Source of the DNA: Parafrankia discariae | GTDB lineage: Bacteria; Actinomycetota; Actinomycetes; Frankiales; Frankiaceae | Assembly (NCBI RefSeq): GCF_000373365.1 | Contig: NZ_KB891222.1 | Coordinates: 1 to 60,904 of the forward strand | Direction of reading: 5' to 3' | Length of the DNA: 60,904 nt | Shown here: positions 6,308 to 20,739 of the stretch, in pieces | Position numbering within the stretch: the first letter of the stretch is position 1 | Layout of the letters: each line of letters begins with the position of its first letter | Notes under the pieces: model-generated | Databases searched by the model: none | What the model was told of the DNA's origin: nothing | The model's input: the letters and a program-made list of their open reading frames with translations, nothing else | Position numbers and translations under genes: made by a program

Positions 6308-6330
6308 CGTTTCCGCCCGCGTGCCGACGC

Positions 6331-6361
6331 TCCGGCCGTGCCCTCGCCAGGCACGGCCGGA
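6331..6361. terminator. 12-bp perfect hairpin, terminator-like
   Basis: TCCGGCCGTGCC at 6331-6342 and its exact complement at 6350-6361 enclose a 7-base loop, starting 23 bp after the stop codon of the chimera gene. There is no T-run after it. It is a plausible actinobacterial I-shaped terminator or an mRNA-stability element ahead of the rhodanese gene. Confidence 0.55.
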
Positions 6362-6401
6362 ACACGGTCATGAGCCGACCGCGCAACCCGGAAGGACCAC
6401 G

Positions 6402-7988
6402 ATGACACCCCTGGAGATCTCGCCGGAACACGTGCGCGACCTGCTGCGCCGGCGCCAGGAGATCGCGCTCGTCGACGTGCGCGAGGAGGCGCTGTACGCG
6501 CAGGGACACCCGCTGTGGGCCGCGAACGTTCCGCTCTCACGCCTCGAGCTGGAGGTCTGGGAGCGCATCCCCCGGCGCGACACTCTCGTGGTCGTCTACG
6601 GCGACGCCGTCGCGCCGGCGCAGCGGGCCCACGAGGTCCTGGTCGAGCTCGGATACACCCAAGTGCGCCTCCTGCTGGGCGGCCTGGACGGGTGGACCGC
6701 GTCGGGCGGCGAGCTGTTCATCGACGTCAACACCCCGAGCAAGGCGTTCGGGGAACTGGTCGAATCGGTCCGGGGCACGCCGTCGGTCTCCGCTCCCGAG
6801 CTGCGGGCGCTGCTCGACGCGGGGAAGGACGTGGTGGTCGTCGACGCCCGCCGCCCCGACGAGTTCCACACGATGAGCATCCCGACGGCGACCAGCGTGC
6901 CCGGCGGGGAGCTGGTCCTGCGGATCCGCGAGCTGGCCGCCGACCCGGCGACCCAGGTGGTGGTCAACTGCGCCGGGCGCACCCGCAGCATCATCGGCGC
7001 CCAGTCGCTCATCAACTCCGGGCTGCCGAACCCGGTGGCGGCGTTGCGCAACGGCACGATCGGCTGGGTGCTCGCCGGCCAGGATCTGGACCACTCGGCC
7101 ACCGCGGCCGCGCCGGCCCGGGTCGAGCCGGCCCACCGTGAGGTCGCCCGGGCCGGCGCCCGGGCCGCCGCCGAACTGGCCGGCGTCCGCTTCGCCCCGG
7201 CCGCCGACCTGACGGGACCGCCCCCGCCCGGCCGGACGGTCTACCGCTTCGACGTGCGCTCGGCGGCCGAGTACGAGGCGGGTCACCTGCCGGGCTTCCG
7301 GCACGCGCCGGGCGGGCAGCTGGTTCAGGAGACCGACCACCACGCGCCGGTGCGCGGGGCCCGGATCGTGCTGGCCGACGACGACGGCGTCCGCGCGGCG
7401 ATGACCGGTTCCTGGCTGGCCCAGATGGGCTGGGAAACCTGGGTGGTGGCGGAGGTGGGCGCCGCCGGCCGGACCGAGCGGGGCTGGCCGGTCTCCCCGG
7501 CGCCGGCGCCGCCGGGTGTGCCGTCCGTCGCGCCCGGCGAGCTGGCGGGCTGGCTGGGGGAGCCTGCCGAGGGGACGGTGGTCGTCGACGTCGGAGCCGG
7601 TCGTGACTACGCCGCCGGGCACATCCCCGGCGCGTGGCACGCGAGCCGCTCCCGGCTGGCCGTCGCGCTGCGGCGCCTGCCGCCCGCGGACCGGCTCGTC
7701 CTCACCTCCGGCGACGGCCTGCTCGCGCGGTTCGCGACAGCCGACCTCGGCCGACTCACCGCGATCCCGGCCTACGCCCTCGCGGGCGGGACGGCGGGGT
7801 GGCGGGCCAGCGGGAGACCGGTCGAGACGGAGCCCGCGTGTTACACCGAGACACCGCTCGACCGCTACCGGCGTCCGTACGAGGGCACCGACAACGCCCG
7901 CTCGGCGATGGAGGCCTATCTCGAGTGGGAATACGGCCTGGTCGCGCAGCTCGACCGGGACGGCACCCACAACTTCCGGGTGAGCTGA
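6402..7988 (+). CDS. Four-domain rhodanese-like protein
   Basis: The ATG at 6402 is preceded by GGAAGGA and yields 528 residues. Four rhodanese-like domains follow one another: about residues 1-105, 125-230, 265-385 and 400-500. Only the second has the catalytic-loop cysteine (VVNCAGRTRS, Cys190); the equivalent loops of the others read VVYGDAVAPAQ, LADDDGVRAA and LTSGDGLLAR, so they are probably structural or regulatory. Each domain keeps the VDVR/VDAR-type strand and the GG-x-x-GW closing element. The C-terminal tail (LDRYRRPYEG, AYLEWEYGLV) is typical of multi-rhodanese proteins linked to sulfur metabolism. Its role is probably transfer of sulfane sulfur from an unknown donor. No sulfur gene is adjacent, so the pathway cannot be set from context. 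Confidence 0.8.
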   Translation: MTPLEISPEHVRDLLRRRQEIALVDVREEALYAQGHPLWAANVPLSRLELEVWERIPRRDTLVVVYGDAVAPAQRAHEVLVELGYTQVRLLLGGLDGWTASGGELFIDVNTPSKAFGELVESVRGTPSVSAPELRALLDAGKDVVVVDARRPDEFHTMSIPTATSVPGGELVLRIRELAADPATQVVVNCAGRTRSIIGAQSLINSGLPNPVAALRNGTIGWVLAGQDLDHSATAAAPARVEPAHREVARAGARAAAELAGVRFAPAADLTGPPPPGRTVYRFDVRSAAEYEAGHLPGFRHAPGGQLVQETDHHAPVRGARIVLADDDGVRAAMTGSWLAQMGWETWVVAEVGAAGRTERGWPVSPAPAPPGVPSVAPGELAGWLGEPAEGTVVVDVGAGRDYAAGHIPGAWHASRSRLAVALRRLPPADRLVLTSGDGLLARFATADLGRLTAIPAYALAGGTAGWRASGRPVETEPACYTETPLDRYRRPYEGTDNARSAMEAYLEWEYGLVAQLDRDGTHNFRVS

Positions 7989-8020
7989 CCCCGCTTTCCG
8001 GGCCCGCGGCGGCCGGATAC

Positions 8021-8044
8021 CCGGCCGGCGAGGTTTCCGGCCGG
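8021..8044. terminator. Candidate bidirectional terminator between convergent genes
   Basis: Two copies of CCGGCCGG (8021-8028 and 8037-8044), each self-complementary, can pair across an 8-base loop. The site lies between the convergent rhodanese and NTF2-like genes. There is no T-tract, so the call rests on position and stem only. Confidence 0.35.
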
Positions 8045-8083
8045 CGGAGTGCCGGGCCGACTGGGTCTCAGGTCGGCGGGGTG

Positions 8084-8500
8084 TCAGGCCGGCGGGGTGT
8101 AGCCACTGATCTCGTGCTCGGCGATGCGCCACACGCCGTCCGGCTCGCGCCGTTGGACCTGGCGGTGGTCGAACACGGACCGGGCGGAGAACGGCCCCTC
8201 GCCCTCCAGCGTGAACGCCGCCGCCGTGTACTCGACGACCGTGTGGTCGGCGTCGAGCGACCAGGCCCGCAGGTTCGTGATCAGGTGCCGACCGCGCAGC
8301 GGCGACATGCCACGCTCCATCACGGACCGGACGGCGTCCCTCCCGTGGGCCTGGAACACCGTCGCGTCCTCGGTGTACAGCGCCAGCGCGGCGTCGACGT
8401 CGCGGGCGTCGTACCGGCTGAACAGTTCGGCCACGAGCGCCTCGGCGGTGAGCCGCCGCGCGACCTCCGCACCGTCGGGGAGCACTCCTGGATCACGCAT
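8084..8500 (-). CDS. SnoaL/NTF2-like small protein
   Basis: The ATG at 8500 gives 138 residues, a usual length for this fold; an upstream in-frame start would add a non-conserved, cysteine-rich leader. The N-terminal helix (LVAELFSRYDARDVDAALALYTEDATVFQ) and the following strands (VFDHRQVQRREPDGVWRIAEHEI) are typical of the NTF2-like superfamily, in which members act as small isomerases, cyclases, dehydratases or ligand-binding proteins. No catalytic residues can be assigned with confidence. It sits downstream of, and on the same strand as, the solute-binding lipoprotein gene, with a gap of about 55 bp, so the two may be co-transcribed. Confidence 0.7.
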   Translation of the reverse strand: MRDPGVLPDGAEVARRLTAEALVAELFSRYDARDVDAALALYTEDATVFQAHGRDAVRSVMERGMSPLRGRHLITNLRAWSLDADHTVVEYTAAAFTLEGEGPFSARSVFDHRQVQRREPDGVWRIAEHEISGYTPPA

Positions 8501-8555
8501 ACGCTGGTTCCGCCCATCGTCGTCGGCGAGCGTTCGGCCTGTTGAGGCTACTCGG

Positions 8556-10121
8556 TCACCGCTGTATCCACAGTTTCTCGGGCAGCAGGGAACCGAGGCC
8601 GTACTGCGCGAGGCCGCCGACATTCCTGCTCGAGATGGCGCCGAGCGCCCCGCGCGCGATGAAGAACAACGGGGTCAGTGCGGTCAGCCGTTCCTGCACG
8701 GTGTCGTAGGCCGCCCTGCGTTCCTCTTCCGAGGTCGCGGTCCGGCCGGTCTGCAGCGCCTCGTTCAGCGCCGGGTCGTCGATGCCGGGCATGTTCGCCG
8801 CCGAGCCCCCGGCGAAGACCGTCGACAACCGGGGCTCGGGGTCCTGGAAGAGCGCGGACGTGATGACCGCGTCGAAGTCGAGTGTCCGGCGGAGCTGGAC
8901 GAACTCGGCGAGCTCAATCGTCCTGATCTGGACCTTGACGTTGTTGAAGGCGCTGAGCTGGGCCTGGATGTTCTCCGCGAGTGCCCTGTTCTCGCTGCTG
9001 GAGGAGCTGGTGAACGTGAAGGACAGCGGCTTTCCGTCGGCGGCCAGCTCGTCGAGGAGCCGTTGGGCGGTCGCCTTGTCCGTCCTGCGCAGCGGTTTTT
9101 CGGAGTAGAAGGGGGAGGCGTCGGTGAAAAGCGTGTCGGCCAGCCGCGCGGTTCCGTTGTAGGCCGCGAGGTTCAGTGCCTCCGGGTCGAGTGCCGCCGC
9201 GACCGCCTGACGCGCGCGGATGTCGTCGAACGGTGCCCGGCGCATGTTCAGCGCCGCGAAGACGCCGCCGTTGAGCTGCATGATGTTTGTCGGCAGGCCT
9301 GCCTTGGCTGCCTTGTCGAGGTTGATCCAGCTGGAGTCGATGGCCACGTCCGCGCCTCCGGTGAGCAGCGTGTTGTAGCGCTGGTTGCCGTCGAGCGCGG
9401 TGCGCAGGGTGAGGCGGTCGAGGTAGGGCCTGGGCGCGTCCCAGTACCGGGGGTTCCGGACGAGCCGGATGTCGGCCTGACGGGTCCAGCTCTCGAGGGT
9501 GAACGGTCCCGCGCCGATCGGCTTCGCGTCGAACGCCTGCTGGCCCTTCCGCAGGGCCGCGGGTGAGGCGATCCAGTTCATCGAGGAGGCGAGGACGGAC
9601 AGGGCGTACCTCGGCACGGGGGTGACCAGGGTGACCTTCAGCGTGACGTCGTCCACCACCTCGGACGATGCGATGGTCGCCGCCTCCGACCGGTGGGCCG
9701 AGCCGACGGCCGGGTCCTTGGTCCGGTCCCAGTTGAACTTCACGGCCTCGGCGTCCAGCGCGGTGCCGTCGGAGAAGACCAGGTTCGGCCGCAGCTTCAG
9801 GGTGAAGGTCCTGCCGTTGTCGGCCGTGGTGAACGACTCGGCCATCGAGTACCGGACCCTGTCCGCCGCGTCGTTGGTCATCAGGGTCCCGTACAGCGCA
9901 TTGCCCAGAAGCGCGCCGGACGCGTACGAGTTCCCGAGGACCGCCGGATCCAGGGTGCGCGGATCGCTCAGCGTGAGGATCCGTCCTTCACCGCCCGCCA
10001 CCGGCTCGCCCGAGGGCCCCGTGGACGTGGCGGGATCACCGCCACCGCCGCCGCAGGCCCCCAGCAGGAGCGCCGCGCAGCATGCGACAGCGGTGACGAG
10101 TAATCGCGTCCCACGAGTCAT
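8556..10121 (-). CDS. ABC transporter solute-binding lipoprotein, family 5 (peptide/nickel/opine type)
   Basis: From the ATG at 10121 the protein has 521 residues. A signal peptide (MTRGTRLLVTAVACCAALLL) ends in a lipobox LGAC, then a Gly-rich linker and the family-5 binding fold (SDPRTLDPA at the first lobe, KLRPNLVFSDGT, PIGAGPFTLESW, RNPRYWDAPRPYLDRL). It should be anchored outside the membrane and deliver a peptide-like or other small ligand to a permease. No permease or ATPase gene is next to it, so it is an orphan in this window. An alternative ATG lies 15 bp upstream. The same family supplies the C-terminal part of the chimera at 4211-6307, but the two are clearly different sequences. 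Confidence 0.9.
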   Translation of the reverse strand: MTRGTRLLVTAVACCAALLLGACGGGGGDPATSTGPSGEPVAGGEGRILTLSDPRTLDPAVLGNSYASGALLGNALYGTLMTNDAADRVRYSMAESFTTADNGRTFTLKLRPNLVFSDGTALDAEAVKFNWDRTKDPAVGSAHRSEAATIASSEVVDDVTLKVTLVTPVPRYALSVLASSMNWIASPAALRKGQQAFDAKPIGAGPFTLESWTRQADIRLVRNPRYWDAPRPYLDRLTLRTALDGNQRYNTLLTGGADVAIDSSWINLDKAAKAGLPTNIMQLNGGVFAALNMRRAPFDDIRARQAVAAALDPEALNLAAYNGTARLADTLFTDASPFYSEKPLRRTDKATAQRLLDELAADGKPLSFTFTSSSSSENRALAENIQAQLSAFNNVKVQIRTIELAEFVQLRRTLDFDAVITSALFQDPEPRLSTVFAGGSAANMPGIDDPALNEALQTGRTATSEEERRAAYDTVQERLTALTPLFFIARGALGAISSRNVGGLAQYGLGSLLPEKLWIQR

Positions 10122-10568
10122 CTTCCAACCCTTCACGGGAATCGGGGATCGGGTGAAGACGCGGCCGTGCCCGCCTGGATGCGCGGGCGATGCCGCCTCG
10201 ACACATCATCGGCGGCCGGGCCGTGGGCGTCTTTGCGCATTCGGTCAATTCTTTGCCCGTGGCAGCCAGTGTTGGGCCGACAGTTCGCGTGATGCGGGCC
10301 GTCCGCGTGCTCGGCTGGCCCCGCGGGTCTGGCTTTGTCGCCTCGCTCAGATATACGGCTCGACGCGGAGGGGTAATCCGGCCCCGGCCGCTGGCGACCG
10401 CCCCCTGGGACGGACCTGTCGGTGCGTACCCGGGCGATGGTGGCGACTCTGCCGCTGTAGGCGGTCATCGTCGTGCGGTGGTCACCCGGCCTTCCGCTAC
10501 GGTCGGGTCCGCGCCGCGGAGCACACGCGGAAGATCGTCTCCGATCTCGACGGAAGGGGAACCACCCC
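10122..10568. other. Divergent intergenic region without a gene
   Basis: This stretch separates the solute-binding lipoprotein gene from the aldo/keto reductase gene and must hold both promoters. I see no convincing -35/-10 pair, palindrome or conserved frame. The reductase ribosome-binding site (GAAGGGGA) is near 10552-10560. Confidence 0.4.
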
Positions 10569-11456
10569 ATGTCCACCGTGACACCCGTAACGCTGAACAA
10601 TGGGGTCGAGATGCCCGCGGTCGGCCTCGGTGTCTATCAGACCCCGCCGCAGGAGACCTCGTCTGCTGTCGCGGCGGCGCTGTCGGCCGGTTACCGGCAC
10701 ATCGACACCGCGGCGGTCTACGGCAACGAGCGGCAGGTCGGGGAGGCCGTCCTGAAGTCCGGTGTCGACCGGGCCGAGGTCTTCCTGGAGACCAAGATCT
10801 GGATCAGTGACTTCGGCTACGACCAGACCCTGCACGGCTTCGAGAAGGGCGCGGGCAAGCTCGGCGTCGACCGGATCGACCTGCTCCTTCTGCATCAGCC
10901 GCTGCCGTCGGATTTCGACCGGACGCTGGAGGCCTACCGTGCCCTGGAGACGCTGCTCGCCGACGGGAAGGTCCGTGCGATCGGGGTCAGCAACTTCATG
11001 GTCGAGCACCTCACCGCCCTGCTCGAGCGGGCGAGTGTCGTCCCCGCGGTGAACCAGATCGAGGTGCATCCCTACTTCGCCCAGCGCGCGGTGCAGGAGT
11101 TCGGTGCCGAGCACGGCATCCACACGCAGGCGTGGTCGCCGATCGGTGGGATCACCTTCTACCGTGACAGCGCCCACGACAGCACCCTGCGGGACCCGGT
11201 GATCGGCGAGATCGGGCAGGCGCACGGCCGGACGCCGGCCCAGGTGATGCTGCGCTGGCACCTGCAGCAGGGCCGGTCGACGATCCCGAAGTCGACACGG
11301 CCGGAGCGGATCGCGGAGAACTTCGACGTGTTCGACTTCGAGCTGACCGACCGGCAGCTCGCCGCGATCGACGGCCTCGACACCGACCGGCGCGGCGGCC
11401 CGGAGCCCGGTGACATCACCCTCGCGAACTTCGGCATGCCGATTCCCGAGGCCTGA
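10569..11456 (+). CDS. Aldo/keto reductase
   Basis: This 295-residue protein is a full-length (beta/alpha)8 aldo/keto reductase of the 2,5-diketo-gluconate reductase-like group. The catalytic tetrad is visible as Asp46 and Tyr51 (HIDTAAVYGNE), Lys76 (ETKIW) and His109 (LLLHQPLP). The NADPH-binding end (STIPKSTRPERIAEN) is intact. It would reduce aldehydes or ketones in the cytoplasm using NADPH; the physiological substrate cannot be read from sequence. The start at 10569 follows GAAGGGGAACCACCCC. It is monocistronic and convergent with the ATP-grasp operon. Confidence 0.93.
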   Translation: MSTVTPVTLNNGVEMPAVGLGVYQTPPQETSSAVAAALSAGYRHIDTAAVYGNERQVGEAVLKSGVDRAEVFLETKIWISDFGYDQTLHGFEKGAGKLGVDRIDLLLLHQPLPSDFDRTLEAYRALETLLADGKVRAIGVSNFMVEHLTALLERASVVPAVNQIEVHPYFAQRAVQEFGAEHGIHTQAWSPIGGITFYRDSAHDSTLRDPVIGEIGQAHGRTPAQVMLRWHLQQGRSTIPKSTRPERIAENFDVFDFELTDRQLAAIDGLDTDRRGGPEPGDITLANFGMPIPEA

Positions 11457-11484
11457 TCACCCCGTTCCGCCGGGGGAGACGCCC

Positions 11485-11499
11485 CAGCCCGCCGGGCTG
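11485..11499. terminator. Small GC hairpin between convergent genes
   Basis: CAGCCC and GGGCTG (11485-11490 and 11494-11499) can pair around a 3-base loop, 29 bp after the aldo/keto reductase stop. It may end transcription from one or both sides. Weak, with no T-run. Confidence 0.25.
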
Positions 11500-11600
11500 C
11501 CCGTCGTCGACGTCCGTCCAGCGGCCGACAGGACCCGCGCACCCGCGTGGCCGGCCGGCTCCCGCGCGACCACGGTCCGACGTGCGTGGCATGCGGTGGG

Positions 11601-12509
11601 TCAGCGGCTCGGTGTGCTGAGCCAGTCGACGATCGCGCGGGAGATGACACCGTCCGCGCGTTCGTCGTATCCCTCGAAGCACGGCATCGAGTTGGCCTCC
11701 AGGAAGTACCATTCCCCCGTCGCACGGTCGATCTTGAAATCGACGCCCAGGAACGGCACCCCGCAGAACTCGGTGAGGCGAGCGCATCCGTCGGCGACTT
11801 CTGGGGGCGGGGTCAGCGGCCGGTAGCCGTTGACGCCGCGGACTGTCCGGTAGTCGAGCACCGGCGAGTCGATGAGCTCACCGAACGACCGGTCGCCGAC
11901 CACGTGGATCCGTACGTCAGGACCGATGACGCGCTCCTGGAAGAGCACCGGCAGGCGCCTGATGCGTGGCAGGTCGGCCTCGTGACGCGGCTCGAGGACG
12001 GTCGCCCAGGTCTTGGTGGCGCTCGCGCCCTTGAAGATCGCGCCGTTGCGGCAGCCCCGGATGAACCGCGACGCCTCCACGGGATCGGAGGTGAGGCAGG
12101 TCTCCGGGATCCGCCAGCCACCGACCTCGCCGAGGGTGACCGCGTGCAGAACCTTGGTGAATCCTGACGCTTCGCGCAGCGGGGGGTTCATCACCTTGCC
12201 GGGGACCGCCTCCAATATTCGCGCTAAAGCCTCTGCCTGCCCGCCGGCGGCCGCGGCCAGTTCCGGGGTCGGTGCGGCCGCGGAGACGTCCATGAGGCGA
12301 CACCAGATTCCCGAGAAGTCACCGAGGCGGTGTTTCTCGCCGGACAGCGAGAGTTCGGTTTCGTCGGGGCCGTCCAACGGTACGCGGATACTGCCGCGCA
12401 TCGCCAGCGACGGCAGGTCGACGGACCGAAACGCGACCCGTGCCCGCCGGAGGGCCCGGACCCCGGCGGTGAAGGTCGGGTCGGCCGCCAGGCCGAGGCA
12501 CAGGATCAT
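11601..12509 (-). CDS. ATP-grasp ligase, candidate peptide-modifying (graspetide-like) enzyme
   Basis: The ATG at 12509 overlaps the stop of the upstream gene (ATGA), giving 302 residues. The order is a pre-ATP-grasp domain (residues 1-110), then the ATP-grasp fold. Expected ATP and Mg ligands are all present: Lys119 (FTKVL), Lys160 (AIFKG), the hinge LFQERV (189-194), the DVRIHV strand (198-203), Asp257 (GVDFK) and the terminal LEANSMP (270-276, Glu271 and Asn273). This layout matches RimK- and MvdC/MvdD-like ligases, which activate a side-chain carboxylate as an acyl-phosphate. It is the last gene of a four-gene coupled operon headed by a Ser/Thr/Glu-repeat peptide, so the likely reaction is ester or amide formation on that peptide's glutamates. 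The substrate link is inference. Confidence 0.85.
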   Translation of the reverse strand: MILCLGLAADPTFTAGVRALRRARVAFRSVDLPSLAMRGSIRVPLDGPDETELSLSGEKHRLGDFSGIWCRLMDVSAAAPTPELAAAAGGQAEALARILEAVPGKVMNPPLREASGFTKVLHAVTLGEVGGWRIPETCLTSDPVEASRFIRGCRNGAIFKGASATKTWATVLEPRHEADLPRIRRLPVLFQERVIGPDVRIHVVGDRSFGELIDSPVLDYRTVRGVNGYRPLTPPPEVADGCARLTEFCGVPFLGVDFKIDRATGEWYFLEANSMPCFEGYDERADGVISRAIVDWLSTPSR

Positions 12510-13285
12510 GAGGTGAGCCGATTCAGCAGCGCCGTGTAGACCCGCTCCTCGACAAGCGGGAACAGGCGGCGGTCGGGCCAGCACGACACGTCGAGCAGCC
12601 GAGTGACGCCGTCTTCCAGTTCCACCGTGAAATCGACGAAATCCATTCCGCTCCGCCGAAGCCAGGAGATGACGGGGGCCACCCGGTCAGCCAGGTCCGG
12701 GTCGAGACGATCCCCGGTCGTGCTCACATCGAACGCGGTGGATCCGGCAAGGACGACCCGGCGGGTACGGCTCGGGTCGCTGTCGCCGATCTGCACGACG
12801 TCGAACCTGCTCCGAGGAGCATCGGGATCCACCATCGCCCAGCTGGGCAGGCGGTACATCGTGGTTCCGGGTGCGGATCCCGCATTGAGGATCACCGTGC
12901 GCGGCGGGGCGACGGCACCGTACCTTGCGAGCTCCAGCGGATCCAGGCGCGGGAAGAACCCCCGAGCGGACGGTCTGTTCACGACAGGCCCGGGCCACAG
13001 CGCGACCGCCGACCAGAAGGCCGCGTACCTCTCGGCGGAGACGAAGGCCCGCTGCGTGTCCGGCTCGTGACCCCAGTCGCCCAGCCCCCGGGTCAGTACC
13101 CCGCTGACCTCCACCTCGTCGATCGTGATCCGCGTGCGGCAGACGCGATCCCGGGTCACGCGCACCGTGATTCCCACCCGACCGAACTCGGCCGCCACCA
13201 CTGTCGGCACGCCGCCACGGTTCGCGAAATCGGCGAACCGGCCGGCGGTGTCGTCCGTGTCCGGGGCGATGACCAGGAGAGTCAT
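12506..13285 (-). CDS. Degenerate ATP-grasp-like protein, partner of the adjacent ligase
   Basis: The ATG at 13285 overlaps the stop of the preceding small gene (ATGA); the product is 259 residues and its own stop overlaps the ligase start. It parallels the ligase in layout: an N-terminal domain, a VVNRP segment (101-105, compare VMNPP), a PPRTVIL segment (compare IPETCLT) and a C-terminal GMDFVDFTVELEDG...LLDVSCWP block (213-237, compare VPFLGVDF...FLEANSMP). The Glu and Asn of the ATP-grasp terminus are replaced by Asp and Ser, the basic nucleotide-binding lysines are not evident, and the central domain is shortened. It is probably a non-catalytic binding partner or peptide-recognition subunit. 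The relationship to ATP-grasp is my reading by eye and needs a profile or structure comparison. Confidence 0.65.
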   Translation of the reverse strand: MTLLVIAPDTDDTAGRFADFANRGGVPTVVAAEFGRVGITVRVTRDRVCRTRITIDEVEVSGVLTRGLGDWGHEPDTQRAFVSAERYAAFWSAVALWPGPVVNRPSARGFFPRLDPLELARYGAVAPPRTVILNAGSAPGTTMYRLPSWAMVDPDAPRSRFDVVQIGDSDPSRTRRVVLAGSTAFDVSTTGDRLDPDLADRVAPVISWLRRSGMDFVDFTVELEDGVTRLLDVSCWPDRRLFPLVEERVYTALLNRLTS

Positions 13286-13443
13286 GGCCCCGGGACATCC
13301 AGGGAAAACAGGGCCTCGGCGACCTGCCAAGCCGTCCGCGCAAGGTCCGCGACGGCCGCCGGCCTGGCCTCGGCGGGGATGAACGGCAGTTCCTCGTCGG
13401 AGCCGATCTCGTCCGCCGGCGATTCCCGAGAAGCCGGGTCCAT
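13282..13443 (-). CDS. Small acidic protein (53 aa) in the ATP-grasp operon
   Basis: The ATG at 13443 follows GGAAG by 7 bases and lies 13 bp after the peptide gene's stop. The stop overlaps the next gene's ATG. The N-terminal half is acidic and proline-rich (ESPADEIGSDEELPFIPAEA), and the C-terminal half is predicted helical (AVADLARTAWQVAEALFSLDV). I do not recognise a family. Its position suggests a leader-binding chaperone or a second small substrate of the ligase. The four-base overlap with the gene after it is the main evidence that it is translated. Confidence 0.6.
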   Translation of the reverse strand: MDPASRESPADEIGSDEELPFIPAEARPAAVADLARTAWQVAEALFSLDVPGP

Positions 13444-13456
13444 GACGGTCTTCCGG

Positions 13457-13705
13457 TCAGCGTGGACCGCGAAGCAGACCCACCGGCCGCTCCATCGTCT
13501 CCTTGCGTTCCGTGGTCTCGCTGCTTTCGCTGCTCTCGGTGCTTTCCGAACGTTCGGAGGTCTCGCTGCCCTCAGTGCCCTCAGTGCCCTCGGAGCCCAT
13601 CCTGGAAACCTCGGTGAATCCGCTTCGCGACGACAGGCCACGATATTCCGCGGCGAGTGTCCGGATCTGGGCGGGAAAGTCCGAGGATGATGATCTTCCG
13701 GCCAT
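13457..13705 (-). CDS. Candidate modified-peptide precursor with an x-[S/T]-E triplet array
   Basis: The ATG at 13705 has GAGAGGA upstream and starts 34 bases after the predicted transcription start. The product is 82 residues. Residues 1-36 would be the leader. Residues 37-66 are ten uninterrupted triplets of the form x-Ser/Thr-Glu (GSE GTE GTE GSE TSE RSE, then STE SSE SSE TTE), followed by two degenerate ones, RKE and TME (67-72), and a short tail RPVGLLRGPR. Ser/Thr hydroxyls next to Glu carboxylates at fixed spacing are what an omega-ester-forming ATP-grasp enzyme needs, and such a ligase is encoded three genes downstream. The array is partly mirrored in 9-base DNA repeats (13571-13597), so slippage may have expanded it. 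An upstream in-frame start at 13774 would fall inside the -35 box and is unlikely. Function is inferred from context. Confidence 0.7.
   Translation of the reverse strand: MAGRSSSSDFPAQIRTLAAEYRGLSSRSGFTEVSRMGSEGTEGTEGSETSERSESTESSESSETTERKETMERPVGLLRGPR
13571..13597. repeat. 9-bp tandem repeats inside the peptide gene
   Basis: CTCAGTGCC occurs twice in tandem (13571-13579, 13580-13588), followed by CTCGGAGCC. On the coding strand these specify successive x-[S/T]-E triplets. They show how the array could grow or shrink in whole codons. Confidence 0.7.
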
Positions 13706-13745
13706 GGCGTCCTCTCGGGGTCCGCGCTCTCTACCTGTGACTTCG

Positions 13746-13774
13746 ATATAACATCCGTACGTTGGCCTCGTCAA
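13746..13774 (-). promoter_or_regulatory. Sigma-70-like promoter of the peptide/ATP-grasp operon
   Basis: On the minus strand, TTGACG (13774-13769) is followed after exactly 17 bases by TTATAT (13751-13746). Transcription would begin near 13739 and leave a leader of about 34 bases to the ATG at 13705. This is the best promoter match I see in the window and it supports the chosen start. Confidence 0.6.
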
Positions 13775-13880
13775 CGAGGTTTCGGTCGATTATGCGCGAG
13801 TGCGCGCGGGTGATGTAGAGCTGTACGCGCCCTCGGAATGCAACAACCCTCGTCGAAGGCTCCGGTGGTCGCGTACCGGG

Positions 13881-16571
13881 TCAGCCGAGACCGAGCTCGT
13901 CGGCGCGCAGGGCCACCGCCCGGCGGGTCGGCAGGTCCAGTTTGGTGAGGATGGCGGAGACGTGATGGTCGGCGGTCTTCACCGAGATGTAGAGGCGGGT
14001 GGCGATCTCGGCGTTGGTCAGCCCTCGGGCGACCAGCCTGGCCACGTCGAGCTGACGGTTCGTCAGGCCCGCCGGGTTCGCCCGGGTGCTCTCGCGGGGC
14101 CGCCTGGGAAGCTGGGTGATGCCGTCGCGGCGCAGGGCCGCCCGCTGCCGGTCGGCGGTGCCGGTGGCGCCGAGCTGGTCCAGCAGCTCCACGCCGTGTG
14201 CCCGCTGGCCGGGGTCGGGGGAGTCGCACAGCGCCATCGCCTCGGCGAAGGGCTCACCGGTACGACGCCACCACGACGCGGCCTCGTCGTGATCGCCCGT
14301 GAGACTGAGCCGGAACGGCGGCGCCACCTCGTCGGGCCAGCGGCTCAGCAGCCCGAGCCGGGCCAGCCAGACCGCGAGGTCGCCGGCGGCCCAGGCCGTC
14401 CCGGCGATCCCCGTCGCGCCGGCTGTGCCGGCAGTACCGGCAGTACCGGTGGCCGTGCCGGCCGGGCTGGCGGGCGACCCGGTCTCGGTGATCGCGGCGG
14501 CCGCGCGGGTGACCCGGGCGTCGGGCACCTCGGTGAGCCACATCCGTTCGGCCAGCGCGGAGAGCACCGCCAGCCGGCGCAGCGGCTCGTCGAGGTGTTC
14601 GGCGAGGTCCCAGGCGGTGTCCAGGGCGGCCAGTGCGGCGGCGGCCGGGACGTCCGCGCCCCGGCGCAGCGGCACCAGAGCGGTGACGAGCAGTGGCCAC
14701 AGCGTCGCGAGCGGCATGCCGCGATCCTCGATCACCTGCTCCGCGTCCTCGACCGCCGCGCTCCACCGGCCGCGGGCGAAGTGCAGCCGCGCGCGCACGG
14801 CGGTCTGCCAGTGCCGGCAGATCGGGATGTCGCGCTCGACGGTGAACGGCAGGGACTCGTCGAGGACGCGCTGGCCCTCGTGGTAGCGCCGCTGCTCCAC
14901 GTCGAGGTTGGCGAGGCTGGAGTAGCCCGTCGACGCGAGCTCGTCCCAGCCGTGGGCGCGGGCCCGCTCGATGTCGTCGGCCAGCGGGATCCGCGCGTCG
15001 GTGTCCCCGGCCAGCAGGGCGGCGGAGGTCCGCAGGATGCGCCCGCGCTGGGCCAGCTCCGCTTGGCCGTGGCGCTCCGCGGCGTCGATCGCGCCGTCGA
15101 GGTAGCGCCGGGCCAGGGTCACGTCGCCGCGCATGTAGGCGAGGTAGCCCCGGGTCGTCTGGGCGCGGGCGTGGGACTGCTCCAGCTCCGGCCCGGCCGA
15201 GAGTGCGGCGGCGCGCCCGGCGTGTGCCTCCGCCTGCCGGCGCCGGCCGTTGTAGTACTCGAACACGGCGCAGGTGTCGTACGCCGCCGCGAGTCCAGCC
15301 TGGTCGCCGGCCTGCTGCCAGAGTGGGAACGTCGCGCTCACGGTGGCGATCGCCTCCCTGAGGCGGCTGGTCATGTACTGCTCGACCGCGAGCCTGTGGA
15401 GCAGGTCGGCCCGGTCGAGCGCGGGCGCCGTCGCGAGGTGCTCCAGCGCCGTCTCGAAGAACGCCGCCGCGTCGCTGTGGGAACCGGCCTGGATCGCCTG
15501 GCGGGCGGCGGCCGTCGCGTACTCGGCCGCCCGGGCCCCGTCGTGGGCCGCGACCGCGTGGTGGGTGAGGAGGGCGGGATCGCGCGGCTCGATCCGCTCC
15601 AGCGCGGCCAGCAGTCGAGCGTGCAGCCGGGGGGCGCCGCCCGGTGGGATCGTGCTCTCGACGGCCTGGCGCGCGAGCTCGTGCCGGAAGACCAGACCGC
15701 CGCGGGCCCGGGTGAGCAGGCCGGTCGTGTCGAGACGGCGCAACGTGGGCAGGTCGACGCCGAGCGCGGGCAGCACCCGGTCGTCGAGCCGGTCCGGCGC
15801 GGTCGCCACCATCTGGAGCACCTCGACGTCGTCCGGCGTGACGTCGGCGGTGCGGGCGAGCACGGCGTCGCGGACCGAGGTCGGCAGCGGGCGGTCGGGC
15901 TCCTTGGCGATCTCGGTGACGAAGAACGGGTTCCCACCGGTCAGTTCGTGCACGCGACTCGGGTCCAGCCGGGTGCCCCCGACGACGGCGCGGACGGCGT
16001 CGCGGGACAACGGCCGCAGGTCGAGGGTCCGCAGCGCGGCCAGCCGGGCGAAGTCGCCGAGCAGCGGGCGGGCCGAGTGGCCCGGACCGATCTCGTCGTC
16101 CCGGTAGCTCACGAGCAGCGCCAGCGGCATCGCCTCGACCCGGCGCGCGAGGAAACGCAGCACTTCGACCGAGGCGGCGTCGACCCAGTGCAGGTCCTCG
16201 ACCACCAGGACCGTCGTCTCGCCGCGCAGCGCTTCGTAGATCCGCTCGCAGACGCCGGCGAGTGCCAGTTCCGCGCCGCGGTCGCCGGCCTCCTCACCTC
16301 TGACCCCGTCCGCACCGGGCAGCAGCGGTCCCAGGCCGCCGGCCACGGCGATGTCGCGGAACGGGCCGAGCGGCCGGGGCGTCAGGAGCGGGTCGCAGCC
16401 GCCGAGGAGGAGACGCGGGCCGGTCGCGGCCGCGCGGGCCGCCGCGAGGAGGGTCGACTTGCCCGCGCCCGGCTCCCCGGTGACCGCGATGCCCGACCCC
16501 TGCCCGGCCGCCGCCCGGTCGATCGCCGCGCGGACGACGGCGACCTCGCGGTCCCGTTCGAGGAGATCCAC
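13881..16571 (-). CDS. Large ATP-binding LuxR-family regulator (LAL type)
   Basis: There is no ATG near the expected N-terminus; a GTG at 16571 starts the first conserved segment (VDLLERDREVAVVRAAIDRA) and gives 896 residues. The N-terminal AAA/STAND-type ATPase has a Walker A (GEPGAGKST, 32-40) and a Walker B with the DLHWVD signature. The middle is a long TPR-like helical region, and the C-terminus is a LuxR helix-turn-helix (LTNRQLDVARLVARGLTNAE, then IATRLYISVKTADHH). Such proteins activate transcription on binding an inducer and ATP. A Gly-Thr-Ala low-complexity run is coded around 14395-14470. A DUF4242 gene lies just upstream on the same strand, a pairing I recall from other actinobacteria. 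Confidence 0.88.
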   Translation of the reverse strand: MDLLERDREVAVVRAAIDRAAAGQGSGIAVTGEPGAGKSTLLAAARAAATGPRLLLGGCDPLLTPRPLGPFRDIAVAGGLGPLLPGADGVRGEEAGDRGAELALAGVCERIYEALRGETTVLVVEDLHWVDAASVEVLRFLARRVEAMPLALLVSYRDDEIGPGHSARPLLGDFARLAALRTLDLRPLSRDAVRAVVGGTRLDPSRVHELTGGNPFFVTEIAKEPDRPLPTSVRDAVLARTADVTPDDVEVLQMVATAPDRLDDRVLPALGVDLPTLRRLDTTGLLTRARGGLVFRHELARQAVESTIPPGGAPRLHARLLAALERIEPRDPALLTHHAVAAHDGARAAEYATAAARQAIQAGSHSDAAAFFETALEHLATAPALDRADLLHRLAVEQYMTSRLREAIATVSATFPLWQQAGDQAGLAAAYDTCAVFEYYNGRRRQAEAHAGRAAALSAGPELEQSHARAQTTRGYLAYMRGDVTLARRYLDGAIDAAERHGQAELAQRGRILRTSAALLAGDTDARIPLADDIERARAHGWDELASTGYSSLANLDVEQRRYHEGQRVLDESLPFTVERDIPICRHWQTAVRARLHFARGRWSAAVEDAEQVIEDRGMPLATLWPLLVTALVPLRRGADVPAAAALAALDTAWDLAEHLDEPLRRLAVLSALAERMWLTEVPDARVTRAAAAITETGSPASPAGTATGTAGTAGTAGATGIAGTAWAAGDLAVWLARLGLLSRWPDEVAPPFRLSLTGDHDEAASWWRRTGEPFAEAMALCDSPDPGQRAHGVELLDQLGATGTADRQRAALRRDGITQLPRRPRESTRANPAGLTNRQLDVARLVARGLTNAEIATRLYISVKTADHHVSAILTKLDLPTRRAVALRADELGLG

Positions 16572-16659
16572 GTGTTCAGGGTAGAGGCGGGCGGTCGGGC
16601 GCCGAGGTGAAAGGCTCGAGCGCCCCGCCCGAGTGTCGGCCCCGTCATCGGGGCCGCGG

Positions 16660-16947
16660 TCACCGCGCCGTCGCGGCCGCGGCGCTCTGCGGGCCGAACT
16701 CGTTCGAGACGGCCGAGACGTTGTTGGCCGGGAAGCCGCCGCGACGGGCGTGCTCGAGGATGGTCTCCGCGTCCTCCGCCTCGTGCACGCAGTAGATCTT
16801 GTCGTCGGTGACGTAGCTGTTGACCCAGGTGTAGGGCACCCCCAGCGACGCGACGGCCTCGTTGGAGGTCCGCGCGATCTCGGCCAGCTCCTCCTGGCTG
16901 AGGTTTCCGGCACCGGGAATCTCGCGCTCGATGACAAAGCGAGGCAT
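16660..16947 (-). CDS. DUF4242 (nickel-binding-like) small protein
   Basis: A 95-residue protein with ribosome-binding site AAAGGAG before its ATG. The sequence (MPRFVIEREIPGAGNLS, IYCVHEAEDAETILEHARRGG) is the DUF4242 ferredoxin-like fold; this family is named nickel-binding in some databases, though its biological role is not settled. It is on the same strand and upstream of the LuxR/AAA regulator, with an 88-bp gap, so the two may form an operon. Confidence 0.8.
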   Translation of the reverse strand: MPRFVIEREIPGAGNLSQEELAEIARTSNEAVASLGVPYTWVNSYVTDDKIYCVHEAEDAETILEHARRGGFPANNVSAVSNEFGPQSAAAATAR

Positions 16948-17117
16948 GGTCCGCTCCTTTCGTTCCGACGGCCTGCTGCCGTCCGGTGTGTCTCCACTCT
17001 CGGCGCGGCGGGGCGTCTCGACATCGGGAGCGACTCCCCATGTTCGCGGTCCGGGTACCCAGACGCCGGCTCCGCCGGACCAGGCCTAACCAGGCCGCTG
17101 GCGGAAACCCTGTGGGT

Positions 17118-17582
17118 ATGCAGCACATCGTTGTCGGGGTCGACACCCGGGAAGCAGCCCCCGCCGCCCTGGTCCGGGCGGCTGACCTCGCGCGGCGGCT
17201 GGGTGCGGAACTCGACGTCGTCCATGTCCAGCCCCTCAGCCGTGAGGAGATCGGCGTGGTGGTCTCCACGGTGCCCGGGCGGTACCTGTCCGCGCGGTTC
17301 CTCCGGGCTGACCAGGCTGCCCGGACCAGGGAGGTCCGTGCGCTGGCGGAACGGACACTGGCGGGCGGTGCCCTCCCCTGGCGGTTGCACGTCCTGGCCG
17401 GGGATCCCGCGGCGCACCTGCTTGCCGTGGCCGACAGCGTCGACGCCTACGCGATCGTCATCGGTACCCGACACGGCGGTGGGGTCGTCCTGGAGCGGCT
17501 GCTGACCGGCTCGGTCTCCCATCGGGTGGTCAACTGGGCGAAGCGACCCGTTCTGGTCGTCCCGACAGACCTGGACGACTAG
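17118..17582 (+). CDS. Universal stress protein (UspA family)
   Basis: The 154-residue product has the UspA fold: N-terminal strand HIVVGVD, and the ATP-binding motif G-x2-G-x9-G-S near the C-terminus (GTRHGGGVVLERLLTGSVS), followed by KRPVLVVP. It is therefore likely the ATP-binding type. The ATG at 17118 was chosen because the conserved strand begins directly after it; a GTG two codons upstream is possible. It is divergent from the DUF4242 gene. Confidence 0.9.
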   Translation: MQHIVVGVDTREAAPAALVRAADLARRLGAELDVVHVQPLSREEIGVVVSTVPGRYLSARFLRADQAARTREVRALAERTLAGGALPWRLHVLAGDPAAHLLAVADSVDAYAIVIGTRHGGGVVLERLLTGSVSHRVVNWAKRPVLVVPTDLDD

Positions 17583-17609
17583 CCCGCGGATCGGTCCAGT
17601 CGTCGAGGC

Positions 17610-18377
17610 TCAGTGGCCGGACATGCCCCCGTCCACGGCGAGTGTCGCCCCGGTGATGTACGAGGCGGCCGGACTCGCCAGGAACACCACCGCCGCGTCG
17701 AGCTCGTGCTGTTCCCCCAGGCGGCCGAGCGGGCTGGTGCTGGTGATGAACCTCATCAGCCCGTCCTGCGGGACCTGCGCGGTCATCTCGCTGACGAAGT
17801 ATCCCGGGGCGATCGCGTTGACCCGGATTCCCCGGCGGCCGGACCACTGCTGCGACAGGTCCCGGGTGAGGCCGATCAGCCCGGCCTTGCTGGCCGCGTA
17901 GGCGGCCTGCGGGGCGTAGGACTTGACGAGTCCGAGGACACTCGCGATGTTGACGATGCTCGAGCCCGGTTCCATCACCCGGGCGCAGGCCTGGGCCGCC
18001 CAGTAGGCGCCGTTCAGGTTGACGTCGATGACCTGGCGGAACTCCCCGGGCTGTTCCCGCAGGGCGGGCACCGCGCTGCCGGCACCGGCGTTGTTGACCA
18101 GGATGTCGAGTCGGCCGAACTCGGTGATCGCGGCCCGCGCGAGCGCGGTGCACTGGTCCGGGTCGCTGACGTCGGTGGCGACCGTCAGCACCCGCCGCCC
18201 GGTGGTCCGGACGCTGTCCGCCACGTCCTGGAGGCGGTCGGCGCGGCGGGCGGCGAGCACGACGTCCGCGCCGGCCTGGGCGAGCGCGTGCGCGAACCCG
18301 GTGCCGAGGCCCGAACTGGCGCCGGTCACGACCGCCACCCTGCCGTCGAGCCGGAACAGGTCGAGAACGTTGGTCAT
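17610..18377 (-). CDS. Short-chain dehydrogenase/reductase
   Basis: The ATG at 18377 overlaps the stop of the phosphotransferase gene (ATGA), giving 255 residues. Classical SDR features are present: TGASSGLG cofactor loop (18-25), NNAG, and a catalytic Ser then Y-x3-K (NIAS...YAASK), with the usual terminus ITGATLAVDGG. It would oxidise or reduce a hydroxy/keto group with NAD(P). It is the third gene of a coupled operon (acyl-CoA dehydrogenase, phosphotransferase, SDR), so its substrate is probably a CoA ester formed by the other two. Confidence 0.92.
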   Translation of the reverse strand: MTNVLDLFRLDGRVAVVTGASSGLGTGFAHALAQAGADVVLAARRADRLQDVADSVRTTGRRVLTVATDVSDPDQCTALARAAITEFGRLDILVNNAGAGSAVPALREQPGEFRQVIDVNLNGAYWAAQACARVMEPGSSIVNIASVLGLVKSYAPQAAYAASKAGLIGLTRDLSQQWSGRRGIRVNAIAPGYFVSEMTAQVPQDGLMRFITSTSPLGRLGEQHELDAAVVFLASPAASYITGATLAVDGGMSGH

Positions 18378-19405
18378 GCCGACTGCGGGCTTCCGCTCAG
18401 GGCCCGCAGCCCGGCCGCGGCGAGCGGTGCCGTCGCCTCGCCCACGGTGTCGAACCCGGGGCCGCGCGTCACGCCCTGCTGGAACCGGTGGTGGATGCCC
18501 TCCGCGATGACCGCGATCTTGAAGTAGCCGAGTCCGAGGTAGAACGGGAAATTGCTCAGGTCCCGGCCGGTGACCTCGGCGTAGCGGTCGACCAGCGCGC
18601 TCGCCGCGGGCATCCGGGGGCTGGTCGACGCCGCCGACCCGCCCAGCACCGCGGCGAAGGCCGGGTGCGAGTACGCGATGTGGACACCCAGGTCCGCCAG
18701 CGGATCGCCCAGCGCGGCCATCTCCCAGTCGATGAGCGCCCGTACCTGGGCCGGATCGTCCGGCGCCAGGATGACGTTGTCGATGCGGAAGTCGCCGTGC
18801 ACGATGGACGCGCCGCTCTCCGCGGGGGGGTCGGTGGCGAGCCTGGTGTGCAGGGCGTCGACGTCGGGCAGGTCGCGGGTGCGGACCCGCTGCCACTGGT
18901 CGTTCCACCGCCGTATCTGGCGGGCCAGATACCCCTGCGGGCGGCCGAAGGCGCCCAGGCCGACCGTTTCGGGTGTGACGGCGTGCAACCGTGCCAGCAC
19001 GTCGATCAGTGCGTGGGCGCAACGGTCGACGTCCACCTGGGACAGCGCCCGCAGATCGTCCTCGGTGCGCAGGACCGGGCCGGCGACGTGCTCGACGACG
19101 GAGAAGGGCACCCCCAGCGGTCCGCTCTCGCTGCTGGTGACGGCGCGCGGCACCGGCACGTCCGACCCGGACAGCGCGGACACCACCCGGTACTCGCGCA
19201 GGACGTCGTGCGCCGACGGCGTGAGCCCGCCCAGCGGCGGGCGGCGCAGCACCCAGCGGGTCTGCCCGTCGGTGAGCAGATAGGTCAGGTTCGACCGGCC
19301 GCCCGTGATCAGCGTCGCGTCCAGCGCGCCCCGGAAACCGGGCACCTGCTCGGCGAAGAAGTGCTCCAGGGCGGGCAGGTCCAGTCCTTCGACGGCGGTG
19401 CTCAC
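18374..19405 (-). CDS. Aminoglycoside-phosphotransferase-like kinase (ACAD10/11- and LvaA-like)
   Basis: A GTG at 19405 overlapping the upstream stop (GTGA) gives 343 residues. The kinase motifs are intact: a nucleotide-binding start (GGRSNLTYLL), the catalytic loop HGDFRIDN and the metal-binding IDWE. This subgroup is found next to or fused with acyl-CoA dehydrogenases; in mammalian ACAD10/11 and bacterial levulinate (lva) pathways the kinase phosphorylates a 4-hydroxyacyl-CoA. Its overlap with a dehydrogenase gene here supports that kind of role. An antibiotic-resistance role is unlikely given the neighbours. Confidence 0.88.
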   Translation of the reverse strand: MSTAVEGLDLPALEHFFAEQVPGFRGALDATLITGGRSNLTYLLTDGQTRWVLRRPPLGGLTPSAHDVLREYRVVSALSGSDVPVPRAVTSSESGPLGVPFSVVEHVAGPVLRTEDDLRALSQVDVDRCAHALIDVLARLHAVTPETVGLGAFGRPQGYLARQIRRWNDQWQRVRTRDLPDVDALHTRLATDPPAESGASIVHGDFRIDNVILAPDDPAQVRALIDWEMAALGDPLADLGVHIAYSHPAFAAVLGGSAASTSPRMPAASALVDRYAEVTGRDLSNFPFYLGLGYFKIAVIAEGIHHRFQQGVTRGPGFDTVGEATAPLAAAGLRALSGSPQSA

Positions 19406-20595
19406 CGGCCACCCGCCGCGCTGTGCCGCTTCAGTGTCCGCCGGGCGATCGCCCAGCGATGCGTCTCGGACGGCCCGTCGTAGATCCGGAAGGGGCGTAC
19501 CTCGCGCAGGAACCGGCCCAGCGGGATGTCGCCGGACACCCCGAGCGCGCCGCAGATCTGCAGGGACCGGTCCACCACCCGCCACACCGCCTCGGCGCAG
19601 AACGTCTTGCCGATCGACGTGGCCTGCGAGGCCGAGCGGCCCTGGTCGAGTTCCCAGCACGCCTGCAGGATCAGGCCCCGCGCGGCGGCGATGTCGATCT
19701 CGCTGTCGGCGATCATCTGCTGCACCATGCCCAGTTCGCCCAGCCGTGAGCCGAACAGCTCACGCTCGGCGGCCCGGCGGACCGCGATGTCCTGGGCGTG
19801 CCGCGCGATGCCCAGCCAGCGCATGCAGTGCGTCATCCGGGCCGGGCCGAGCCGGACCTGCGCATGACGGAAGCCCTCGTCGACCGCACCGAGCACCGCG
19901 TCGTCCGGCACCTCGCAGTCCTCGAAGAGCAGCTCGATGTGGCCGCCGAACAGGCTCTCGTCGAGGGTGTCGATGTGGCGCACCTGCTTCAGGCCGGGGT
20001 TGTCCGCATCGACGAAGAACATCGTCGCGTCGCCGGGGTCGCCCGGACGGCCGGAGGTGCGGGCCATGCAGATCGTGAACGCCGCGCCGTCCGCGCCGGT
20101 GATGAACCACTTGCGCCCGTTGATCCGCCAGCCGCCGTCGATCCGTTCGGCGCGGGTGGTCAGGGCCCGGGGGTCCGACCCGGCGCCGGGGGCCGGCTCC
20201 GTCATCGCGAAGCAGGACCTGACCTCACCGGCCGCGAGTGGCCGCAGGTAGCGCTCCTTCTGCTGTTCGGACGCGACCGCTTCCAGCAGGTGCATGTTGC
20301 CCTCGTCGGGGGCGGCGATGTTGAGCGCCAGCGGGCCGAACAGGGCGTAGCCGGCCTCCTCGAAGACGGCGGCGCGGCCGCGCATGTCCAGGCCGTGACC
20401 GCCGTACCCGGTACCGACATGGGGCGCGAACAGGCCCGCCGTGCGGGCGGCGTCCTGCAGTTCCCGGCGCACCGCCTCGGTGGGGGTGGCGGCCCCATGC
20501 CGCTCCTCGACCGGGAGCACCACCTCGCGCACGAACCGCGCCGTGCGTCGGGCCAGGTCGGCCACGGCCGGTTCGGGGCTCAGATCAACGGCCAT
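19402..20595 (-). CDS. Acyl-CoA dehydrogenase, ACAD10/11-like
   Basis: The ATG at 20595 has a clear AGGAGG upstream and gives 397 residues, a normal length for the family. The FAD/substrate segments (CFAMTEPAPGAGSDP, WFITGADGA) and C-terminal helices are intact. The C-terminal signature reads IYDGPSETHR, as in the ACAD10/11 group, rather than the YEGT of short- and medium-chain enzymes. It heads a coupled operon with a kinase and an SDR. A palindrome 25-40 bp upstream of the start may be the operator of the divergent TetR protein. Confidence 0.9.
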   Translation of the reverse strand: MAVDLSPEPAVADLARRTARFVREVVLPVEERHGAATPTEAVRRELQDAARTAGLFAPHVGTGYGGHGLDMRGRAAVFEEAGYALFGPLALNIAAPDEGNMHLLEAVASEQQKERYLRPLAAGEVRSCFAMTEPAPGAGSDPRALTTRAERIDGGWRINGRKWFITGADGAAFTICMARTSGRPGDPGDATMFFVDADNPGLKQVRHIDTLDESLFGGHIELLFEDCEVPDDAVLGAVDEGFRHAQVRLGPARMTHCMRWLGIARHAQDIAVRRAAERELFGSRLGELGMVQQMIADSEIDIAAARGLILQACWELDQGRSASQATSIGKTFCAEAVWRVVDRSLQICGALGVSGDIPLGRFLREVRPFRIYDGPSETHRWAIARRTLKRHSAAGGR

Positions 20596-20619
20596 CGGAC
20601 CTCCTGCGGCAGTCATGTG

Positions 20620-20635
20620 GCTAATGGGTGTTAGC
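20620..20635. promoter_or_regulatory. Palindrome GCTAA-N6-TTAGC, candidate TetR operator
   Basis: An inverted repeat with 5-bp arms sits 25 bp upstream of the acyl-CoA dehydrogenase start, in the space shared with the divergent TetR gene. Binding here would block the dehydrogenase operon. A related element lies at 20709-20726. The match is short, so it is a candidate only. Confidence 0.45.
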
Positions 20636-20708
20636 TGAACACTAGTCACACCTTTGCACTGTCCGCAAGCAGGTTGGTTATGATGGAGGCAAGTGCTGGC
20701 AGTCGACC

Positions 20709-20726: not shown

Positions 20727-20739
20727 ACTGTGGGGGAAC

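Follow-up and report, generated by a model that had tools for sequence, protein, structure and literature searches.

A predicted graspetide-type modification operon of Parafrankia discariae that pairs an ATP-grasp ligase with a degenerate ATP-grasp partner and a triplet-repeat peptide

Introduction

The graspetide synthetases PsnB (plesiocin; PDB 7drm-7drp) and PruB (Streptomyces coelicolor; PDB 9bou) are among the closest described counterparts of a four-gene unit found at 11601-13705 on the minus strand of a 60,904 nucleotide stretch of Parafrankia discariae DNA (RefSeq assembly GCF_000373365.1, contig NZ_KB891222.1, positions 1 to 60,904; this whole stretch is called the window). The unit encodes, in this order, a repeat peptide (P0004), a 53-residue protein (P0001), a degenerate ATP-grasp partner (P0002) and an ATP-grasp ligase (P0003), and is interpreted here, with moderate confidence, as a graspetide-type modification operon in which a pseudoenzyme-paired ligase staples donor-acceptor repeats. 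By sequence the ligase profile matched PruB best, and PruB is also the best structural match of the partner; PsnB is the best structural and second-best sequence match of the ligase, with an aligned D-(F/Y)-R stretch. Actinobacterial loci of the tgmA/tgmB type have a short precursor ahead of the ATP-grasp gene, as in the window, but two annotated tgmA loci that were inspected carry one ATP-grasp gene each and not a pair. The plesiocin repeats (TTxxxxEE) are of a different type from the triplets of the window. The available part of PMC13097080 describes a repeat-type core for plesiocin, which P0004 resembles, and mentions no degenerate ATP-grasp partner there, unlike the window.

Other described systems share single traits with the unit. 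Rosaritide MirB needs its co-encoded partner MirC (PMC13097080, available part), and the window ligase likewise has a co-encoded partner, for which a requirement is predicted; MirC, however, is described as PpiC/SurA-like, whereas the window partner has an ATP-grasp fold by model and so is not a MirC-type protein. Corallotide has a large repeat substrate with Lys(i)-Asp(i+4) isopeptides, a spacing that is offered by each run of Lys-(Asp/Glu)-x triplets in relatives of the window unit; in the accessible text of the same source it is confined to Corallococcus, where oxygenase and beta-lactamase genes accompany it, and its repeats lie far apart and are not triplets. In PMC8939145, as far as its text was available, peptidases of unrelated families adjoin the ATP-grasp genes of branches 7 and 8. 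Similar neighbours occur in loci related to the window, whereas the window unit has none. Branch 8 also includes an inactive ATP-grasp protein, comparable with the dead partner of the present family, which lacks Glu-x-Asn in 42 of 42 loci; compared by description, the branch 8 protein is truncated to two N-terminal domains, whereas the window partner is full-length. For branches 7 and 8 no precursors were found in that survey. Graspetide groups 34 and 35 have long precursors with repeating motifs, in group 34 together with proteins that match no hidden Markov model (PMC13097080, available part), and on these descriptions the window family is possibly identical with one of them.

Results

Organisation of the gene set

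A preliminary description, made from the sequence alone, had listed four open reading frames (ORFs), an overlap between each of the last three genes and a promoter. All four ORFs were located on the minus strand (Table 1), and the overlaps are of four bases each, at 13282-13285 (small protein/partner) and 12506-12509 (partner/ligase); the peptide and the small protein are separated by 13 bases. The promoter was not recovered: a sigma-70 scan of 11400-13900 returned none, and the sole promoter-like sequence noted is an imperfect TTGACG-18 bp-TATATC at 13745-13774, seen by eye. The proportion of synonymous differences (pS) exceeded that of nonsynonymous differences (pN) for every gene compared, by using the window against the related loci L002, L004 and L006, and L002 against L004 (for the 53-residue protein, the window-L002 pair only). 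By coordinate arithmetic the reading frame of the small protein is +1 relative to that of the peptide in the window and in L002-L005; a programmed frameshift joining the two was considered and dropped, because the frame relation differs in L006.

The ligase

The ligase belongs to the graspetide synthetase lineage (MvdC/MvdD/TIGR04187). TIGR04187 (GRASP_SAV_5884) was its first NCBIfam match (E 7.2e-25, 87.8 bits), followed by MvdD, and when the ligase profile was compared with the PDB, PruB (E 3.6e-21), PsnB, CdnC, AMdnB, MdnC and MdnB ranked ahead of the LysX-type enzymes. The RimK model TIGR00768 gave 17.6 bits and did not reach its cut-off of 143.4; PF08443 gave no match in the genome of the window at E 0.001. 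An AlphaFold2 model of the ligase (mean predicted local distance difference test score, pLDDT, 76.5) was aligned with PsnB at Z 23.5 over 286 residues (22% identity), followed by CdnC (22.9), MdnC (22.7) and PruB (22.2). The preliminary description had credited the enzyme with all catalytic residues; the active-site residues K119, K160, R200, D257, E271 and N273 are present in all 42 relatives, and 41 of these also have D219 and R221. The latter two belong to a D-(F/Y)-R stretch, located from the ligase-PsnB alignment, that reads D-Y-R in the window; a D-F-R stretch is described as critical in graspetide synthetases in the available part of PMC13097080.

The degenerate partner

Pfam and NCBIfam searches with the partner returned nothing up to E 1, and in the PDB no sequence matched it with an E-value below 1.6. 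A structure model of the partner, with a mean pLDDT of 75.6 and a weak part near residues 131-170, could be aligned from one end to the other with PruB at Z 14.6 (235 residues), followed by MdnB (13.7), human ITPK1 (13.6) and PsnB (13.5), and graspetide ligases filled the top rows of a Foldseek search. Global alignment of the partner and ligase profiles with hhalign gave a probability of 99.5 and E 4.6e-22 over 243 columns. An unrelated protein is ruled out by the structure prediction and comparison together with this alignment. None of the 42 partners retains the Glu-x-Asn metal-site pair that the ligase has, and in the region equivalent to K119 lysine is outside the four commonest residues in nine surrounding columns. 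Judged by model and profile, the partner is a catalytically dead protein of the ATP-grasp fold, in agreement with its earlier description as degenerate. Its gene shows a frame shift in L003 (4304-5001) and an in-frame stop in L005 (4252-5001), although the L005 record bears the title complete genome; both loci were counted among the 42 partner loci and contributed fragments to the partner profile.

The repeat peptide

All twelve triplets of the window peptide have Glu at position 2, and ten have Ser/Thr at position 1, the remaining two residues being Lys and Met. Eleven consecutive triplets follow the pattern [STKR][DE]x, a length that none of 100,000 shuffles of the whole peptide reached; when the repeat segment was shuffled by itself 100,000 times, the best result was 8. 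Codon usage varies inside the repeat, and short 9-bp tandem stretches are present; a chance repeat or a non-coding frame is excluded by the shuffles, the pS/pN comparison and the codon variation. Runs of 11 to 16 triplets occur in 9/9 loci with peptides of this kind (SEx loci), and in the 119 triplets pooled from them Glu occupies position 2 in 119, while position 1 is Ser/Thr in 111 and Lys in 8; F10, P11 and R15 are conserved before the repeats. No NCBIfam precursor model matched P0004, and Pfam and NCBIfam gave no naming match for the peptide or the 53-residue protein, other than one chance match to XopF1 (E 0.54). A graspetide locus is expected to include a linked precursor that offers Ser, Thr or Lys as donors and Asp or Glu as acceptors, and such a peptide is present.

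The wider ligase family and its substrate types

Fifty-two loci were chosen by ligase similarity: the window, L002-L007, L038-L054 (17 of 28 further ligase places; the 11 excluded had E 7.7e-23 to 7.9e-21) and L087-L114 (14 from Amycolatopsis and 14 from Streptomyces searches). In a maximum-likelihood tree, 42 of the ligases are split from the other 10 by a branch with support 100/100. By using an iterated partner profile, the partner was found directly upstream of the ligase in 42/42 loci of this main clade and in 0/10 outside it. A dense cluster of [KST][DE] dipeptides in an ORF upstream of the ligase was detected in 40 of the 42 partner loci; with 500 shuffles each, no shuffle reached the cluster in 38 loci, one did in L043 and four in L101. 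All 20 runs of at least six triplets that a six-frame scan of the 52 loci returned lie upstream of the ligase, on the ligase strand.

Substrate types were assigned from the upstream genes before the tree was drawn (Table 1), and each type with more than one member falls on one side of a tree branch. The K(D/E)x loci, among which L053 is from the genus of the window and L039, L040, L042 and L044 are from its family, encode unbroken runs (KDx runs) of 13 to 20 Lys-(Asp/Glu)-x triplets; position 1 is Lys in 152 of 154 triplets, and the acid at position 2 is Asp 130 times and Glu 24 times. KDx and SEx peptides thus have an identical donor-acceptor order and three-residue period, in two related ligase clades. 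Seven of the proteins were queried against Pfam, which returned M6 in L091 and L103, galactose-oxidase-like domains in L047 and, in L097, Nal1 C-terminal above and Trypsin_2 below the cut-off; L108 and L043 gave nothing, and L090 a sub-threshold low-complexity match only. The remaining members of the protein types were grouped by likeness. The peptidase-like proteins (M6, Nal1/trypsin) carry Lys-Asp/Glu-rich segments and the RPD motif directly upstream of the dead/active pair. In L041 an ORF that by eye resembles a pentapeptide-repeat protein precedes the KE-rich peptide, upstream of 9563-9934.

Table 1. Features of the four-gene unit (coordinates in the window) and substrate types assigned to related loci (aa, amino acids).
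Feature	Coordinates or loci	Strand	Remarks
Precursor-like peptide P0004	13457..13705	-	82 aa; F10, P11, R15 N-terminal to repeats
Repeat region of P0004, putative core	13487..13594	-	residues 38-73, twelve triplets
Small protein P0001, proposed recognition peptide in trans	13282..13443	-	53 aa
FIPAEARP motif of the 53-aa protein	13360..13383	-	recurs in repeat-bearing protein of relatives
Degenerate ATP-grasp partner P0002	12506..13285	-	259 aa
ATP-grasp ligase P0003, graspetide synthetase lineage	11601..12509	-	302 aa
SEx peptides	9 loci		
K(D/E)x peptides	9 loci: L038-L040, L042, L044, L053, L107, L109, L110		
M6-peptidase-like proteins	7 loci: L091, L096, L102-L106		
Trypsin/Nal1-like proteins	4 loci: L094, L097, L098, L112		
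Coil-like proteins	6 loci		
Unnamed larger proteins	3 loci		
KE-rich short peptides	2 loci		
Galactose-oxidase-like protein without repeats	L047:4735-6855		carries F..RPE motif
L007	L007		stands alone in tree grouping

A shared motif and the 53-residue protein

The pattern F(I/V/L)x(2-5)RP(D/E/A/P/S) was found 34 times in 109,310 residues of near-upstream ORFs, defined as those whose end lies 500-2600 bases upstream of the ligase; 1,051,314 residues elsewhere contained it 19 times (for the window, the control was restricted to ligase-strand ORFs within 8 kb). It is present in 33 of the 42 partner loci and in none of the 10 others. In 22 loci, counted as 24 minus the repeat-free L007 and L047, the motif lies inside the repeat-bearing ORF, where in 19 of the 22 it starts 75-147 residues past the start of the 45-residue segment densest in repeats; it precedes that segment in L041 and L101, and L111 has two pattern matches, one before and one after the repeats. 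L007 and all nine SEx loci carry the motif in a separate small protein. Because it is separate there and part of the repeat-bearing ORF in 22 other loci, we infer that the 53-residue protein, in which a conserved helix-like part follows the motif, may be a detached recognition peptide. The graspetide leader motif is given as Phhx(1,2)h in the available part of PMC8939145; by eye, PFIPA of the small protein fits this pattern and DFPAQIR of the peptide does not. The graspetide synthetase ThfB still works when its leader is relocated to the C-terminus (PMC13003496, available part).

Distribution of the four-gene set

Homologous four-gene sets, and peptide homologues beside the ligase, were what the preliminary description had proposed to look for. 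The complete set was found in eight loci besides the window (seven from Amycolatopsis, one from Streptomyces), and the peptide is present in 9/9 loci of the closest clade; a lack of peptide homologues beside this ligase, named in that description as a refuting outcome, was therefore not observed. A contig scan with the ligase yielded six loci, L002-L007; tblastn with the four proteins recovered the full set in four Amycolatopsis loci (L002-L005) and in L006, from Streptomyces sp. NRRL S-87, and the Amycolatopsis genome searches added three more (L087-L089). L007, from a metagenome-assembled Actinomycetota genome, has the small protein, partner and ligase; tblastn with the window peptide gave no match better than E 0.61 there. 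Among 80 Amycolatopsis genomes searched, the peptide, the close partner (E 9.4e-74 or lower) and the close ligase co-occur in the identical seven; the partner has one internal stop in genome G100 and is in two pieces in G098. A ligase of the window type was found in one of 392 Streptomyces genomes, and the window's partner in one of 97 related genomes, namely its own. Genome counts are lower bounds, as only some first-look candidates were scored per genome (5 in the further-ligase search, 6 in Streptomyces, 29 for the Amycolatopsis ligase, 32 for the partner and up to 70 for the peptide). Window ORFs of 100 aa or more within 5001-21000 were compared with the other SEx loci, and among the matches listed all ORFs with relatives there lie within 11347-13789, on either strand. 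The position of these ORFs over the cluster suggests that the four genes may have been transferred together as a unit.

Discussion

In the proposed mechanism, the ligase would use ATP to activate the Glu side chains in the repeat peptide and would esterify them to Ser/Thr hydroxyls, and esters formed along the triplet run would give a series of side-chain rings; KDx peptides would receive isopeptides where SEx peptides receive esters. Side-chain crosslinking is suggested because the SEx and KDx formats differ in donor and acceptor residues yet keep their order and period. For the ring register, S/T(i) to E(i+4) is a guess by analogy with the Lys-xxx-Asp amide of corallotide, as neighbouring KDx or SEx triplets offer the same i, i+4 spacing. 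The dead partner would bind the ligase, the substrate or both and present the substrate while carrying out no ATP chemistry itself, and the 53-residue protein would serve as the recognition element, which in relatives is part of the repeat protein itself. The gene set and its conservation, the folds, the intact and lost active sites, the repeat period, the co-occurrence and the shared motif are results of the analysis; the crosslinks and their register, the roles of the partner and the small protein, and any role of the product are predictions.

Several observations weigh against this interpretation. RimK and LysX structures score Z 20.4 with the ligase model, close behind the graspetide synthetases, and the 87.8 bits of the ligase stay below the TIGR04187 cut-off of 350. 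No protease or exporter gene was seen within the four-gene unit. The partner frame is broken in two of the nine SEx loci (L003 and L005), and for this reason the partner may be dispensable, or the two records may be faulty. L007 and L047 are in the same ligase clade and lack repeats, and the nine partner loci without the F(I/V)...RP motif are precisely the nine KDx loci. The repeats of the larger proteins are dipeptide-rich but do not keep a strict three-residue period, and among the coil-like proteins the acid-donor order is nearly as frequent as the donor-acceptor order.

The same fold comparison would suit a pair that attaches an outside amine (amino acid, polyamine or peptide) to Glu/Asp in the repeats, in the way that RimK, LysX and ArgX treat their substrates; the repeats would then be a multi-site carrier or tag. 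The Z score of 20.4 is near that of PsnB (23.5), a weak RimK-family match exists (17.6 bits) and acidic repeats offer many sites; but graspetide synthetases ranked first by sequence and by structure, and a nucleophilic residue, Ser/Thr in one clade and Lys in another, flanks each acid, which such a reaction would not require. We consider it unlikely, and the peptide-tag ligase that the preliminary description had also entertained is the less likely reading. Quite improbable, too, is intermolecular crosslinking, by which repeat segments of different molecules would be joined or the repeat protein anchored to a cell component. Donors and acceptors are both dense, and the segments of relatives sit in larger proteins, including peptidases, for which anchoring or polymerisation is plausible; however, the closest characterised enzymes form rings within one chain (PMC13097080, available part), and the short SEx and KDx peptides resemble precursors of ribosomally synthesised and post-translationally modified peptides.

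Crosslinking might also be right while the role given to the 53-residue protein is wrong: it could instead belong to the enzyme complex as a small subunit or act as a second substrate, with the repeat peptide carrying its own leader. This variant is compatible with the stapling interpretation and is doubtful but worth keeping in mind; conserved F10, P11 and R15 precede the repeats of the peptide, and the small protein has its own conserved helix-like part after the motif, whereas the same F(I/V)...RP motif lies within the repeat-bearing ORF in 22 related loci. Of the graspetide reading in the preliminary description, the graspetide-type ligase, the degenerate partner and the repeat substrate are supported, while its scope proved too narrow. 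As far as sequence comparison goes, that interpretation appears largely right and is extended by a wider family with Lys-Asp/Glu substrates, larger repeat proteins and the RP(D) motif. A tentative generalisation, which we rate as possible and not as probable, is a bacterial stapling system in which an obligate active/dead ATP-grasp pair would act on (donor-acceptor-x)n segments of whole proteins, addressed by an F(I/V)...RP(D) motif in cis or as a separate peptide, and would form esters (Ser/Thr-Glu) or isopeptides (Lys-Asp/Glu).

No description of triplet substrates with paired ATP-grasp proteins was found in the titles and abstract starts of the literature searched. Relative to the literature consulted, and with the nearest surveys, available in part, compared by description, the new elements are the triplet substrates, the presence of a full-length dead partner throughout the clade, a motif shared by larger proteins and a free small protein, and peptidases as candidate substrates. 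A pseudoenzyme that accompanies a graspetide synthetase lineage in 42/42 sampled loci of one clade is a testable case, as are a recognition peptide possibly split off as its own gene and the use of ester- and amide-type pairs in one repeat format. If the generalisation were true, the peptidases themselves would be the "missing precursors" of ATP-grasp loci with linked peptidases, which would explain the puzzle in the available part of PMC8939145 of peptidases beside seemingly precursor-less ATP-grasp genes. Stapling of simple triplets would be useful for peptide engineering.

Flanking genes and plasmid records

Upstream of the unit, on the same strand, an ORF at 13881-17522 (-) resembles by eye a large LuxR-type regulator; downstream, a convergent ORF at 10473-11456 (+) resembles, again by eye, an aldo-keto reductase. 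In plasmid records P0002 had no match, and P0003 matched 24, none covering 80% of the query. Four of these records were inspected: two contain tgmA loci with a single ATP-grasp gene each, one is unannotated and one contains an alphaproteobacterial locus. In L118 (Candidatus Megaera polyxenophila plasmid pPCS109), a "glutathione synthase" gene matches the ligase (E 1e-14) and is preceded by two small ORFs and followed by two isopenicillin N synthase-like dioxygenase genes; L118 is possibly a graspetide locus on a Rickettsiales plasmid.

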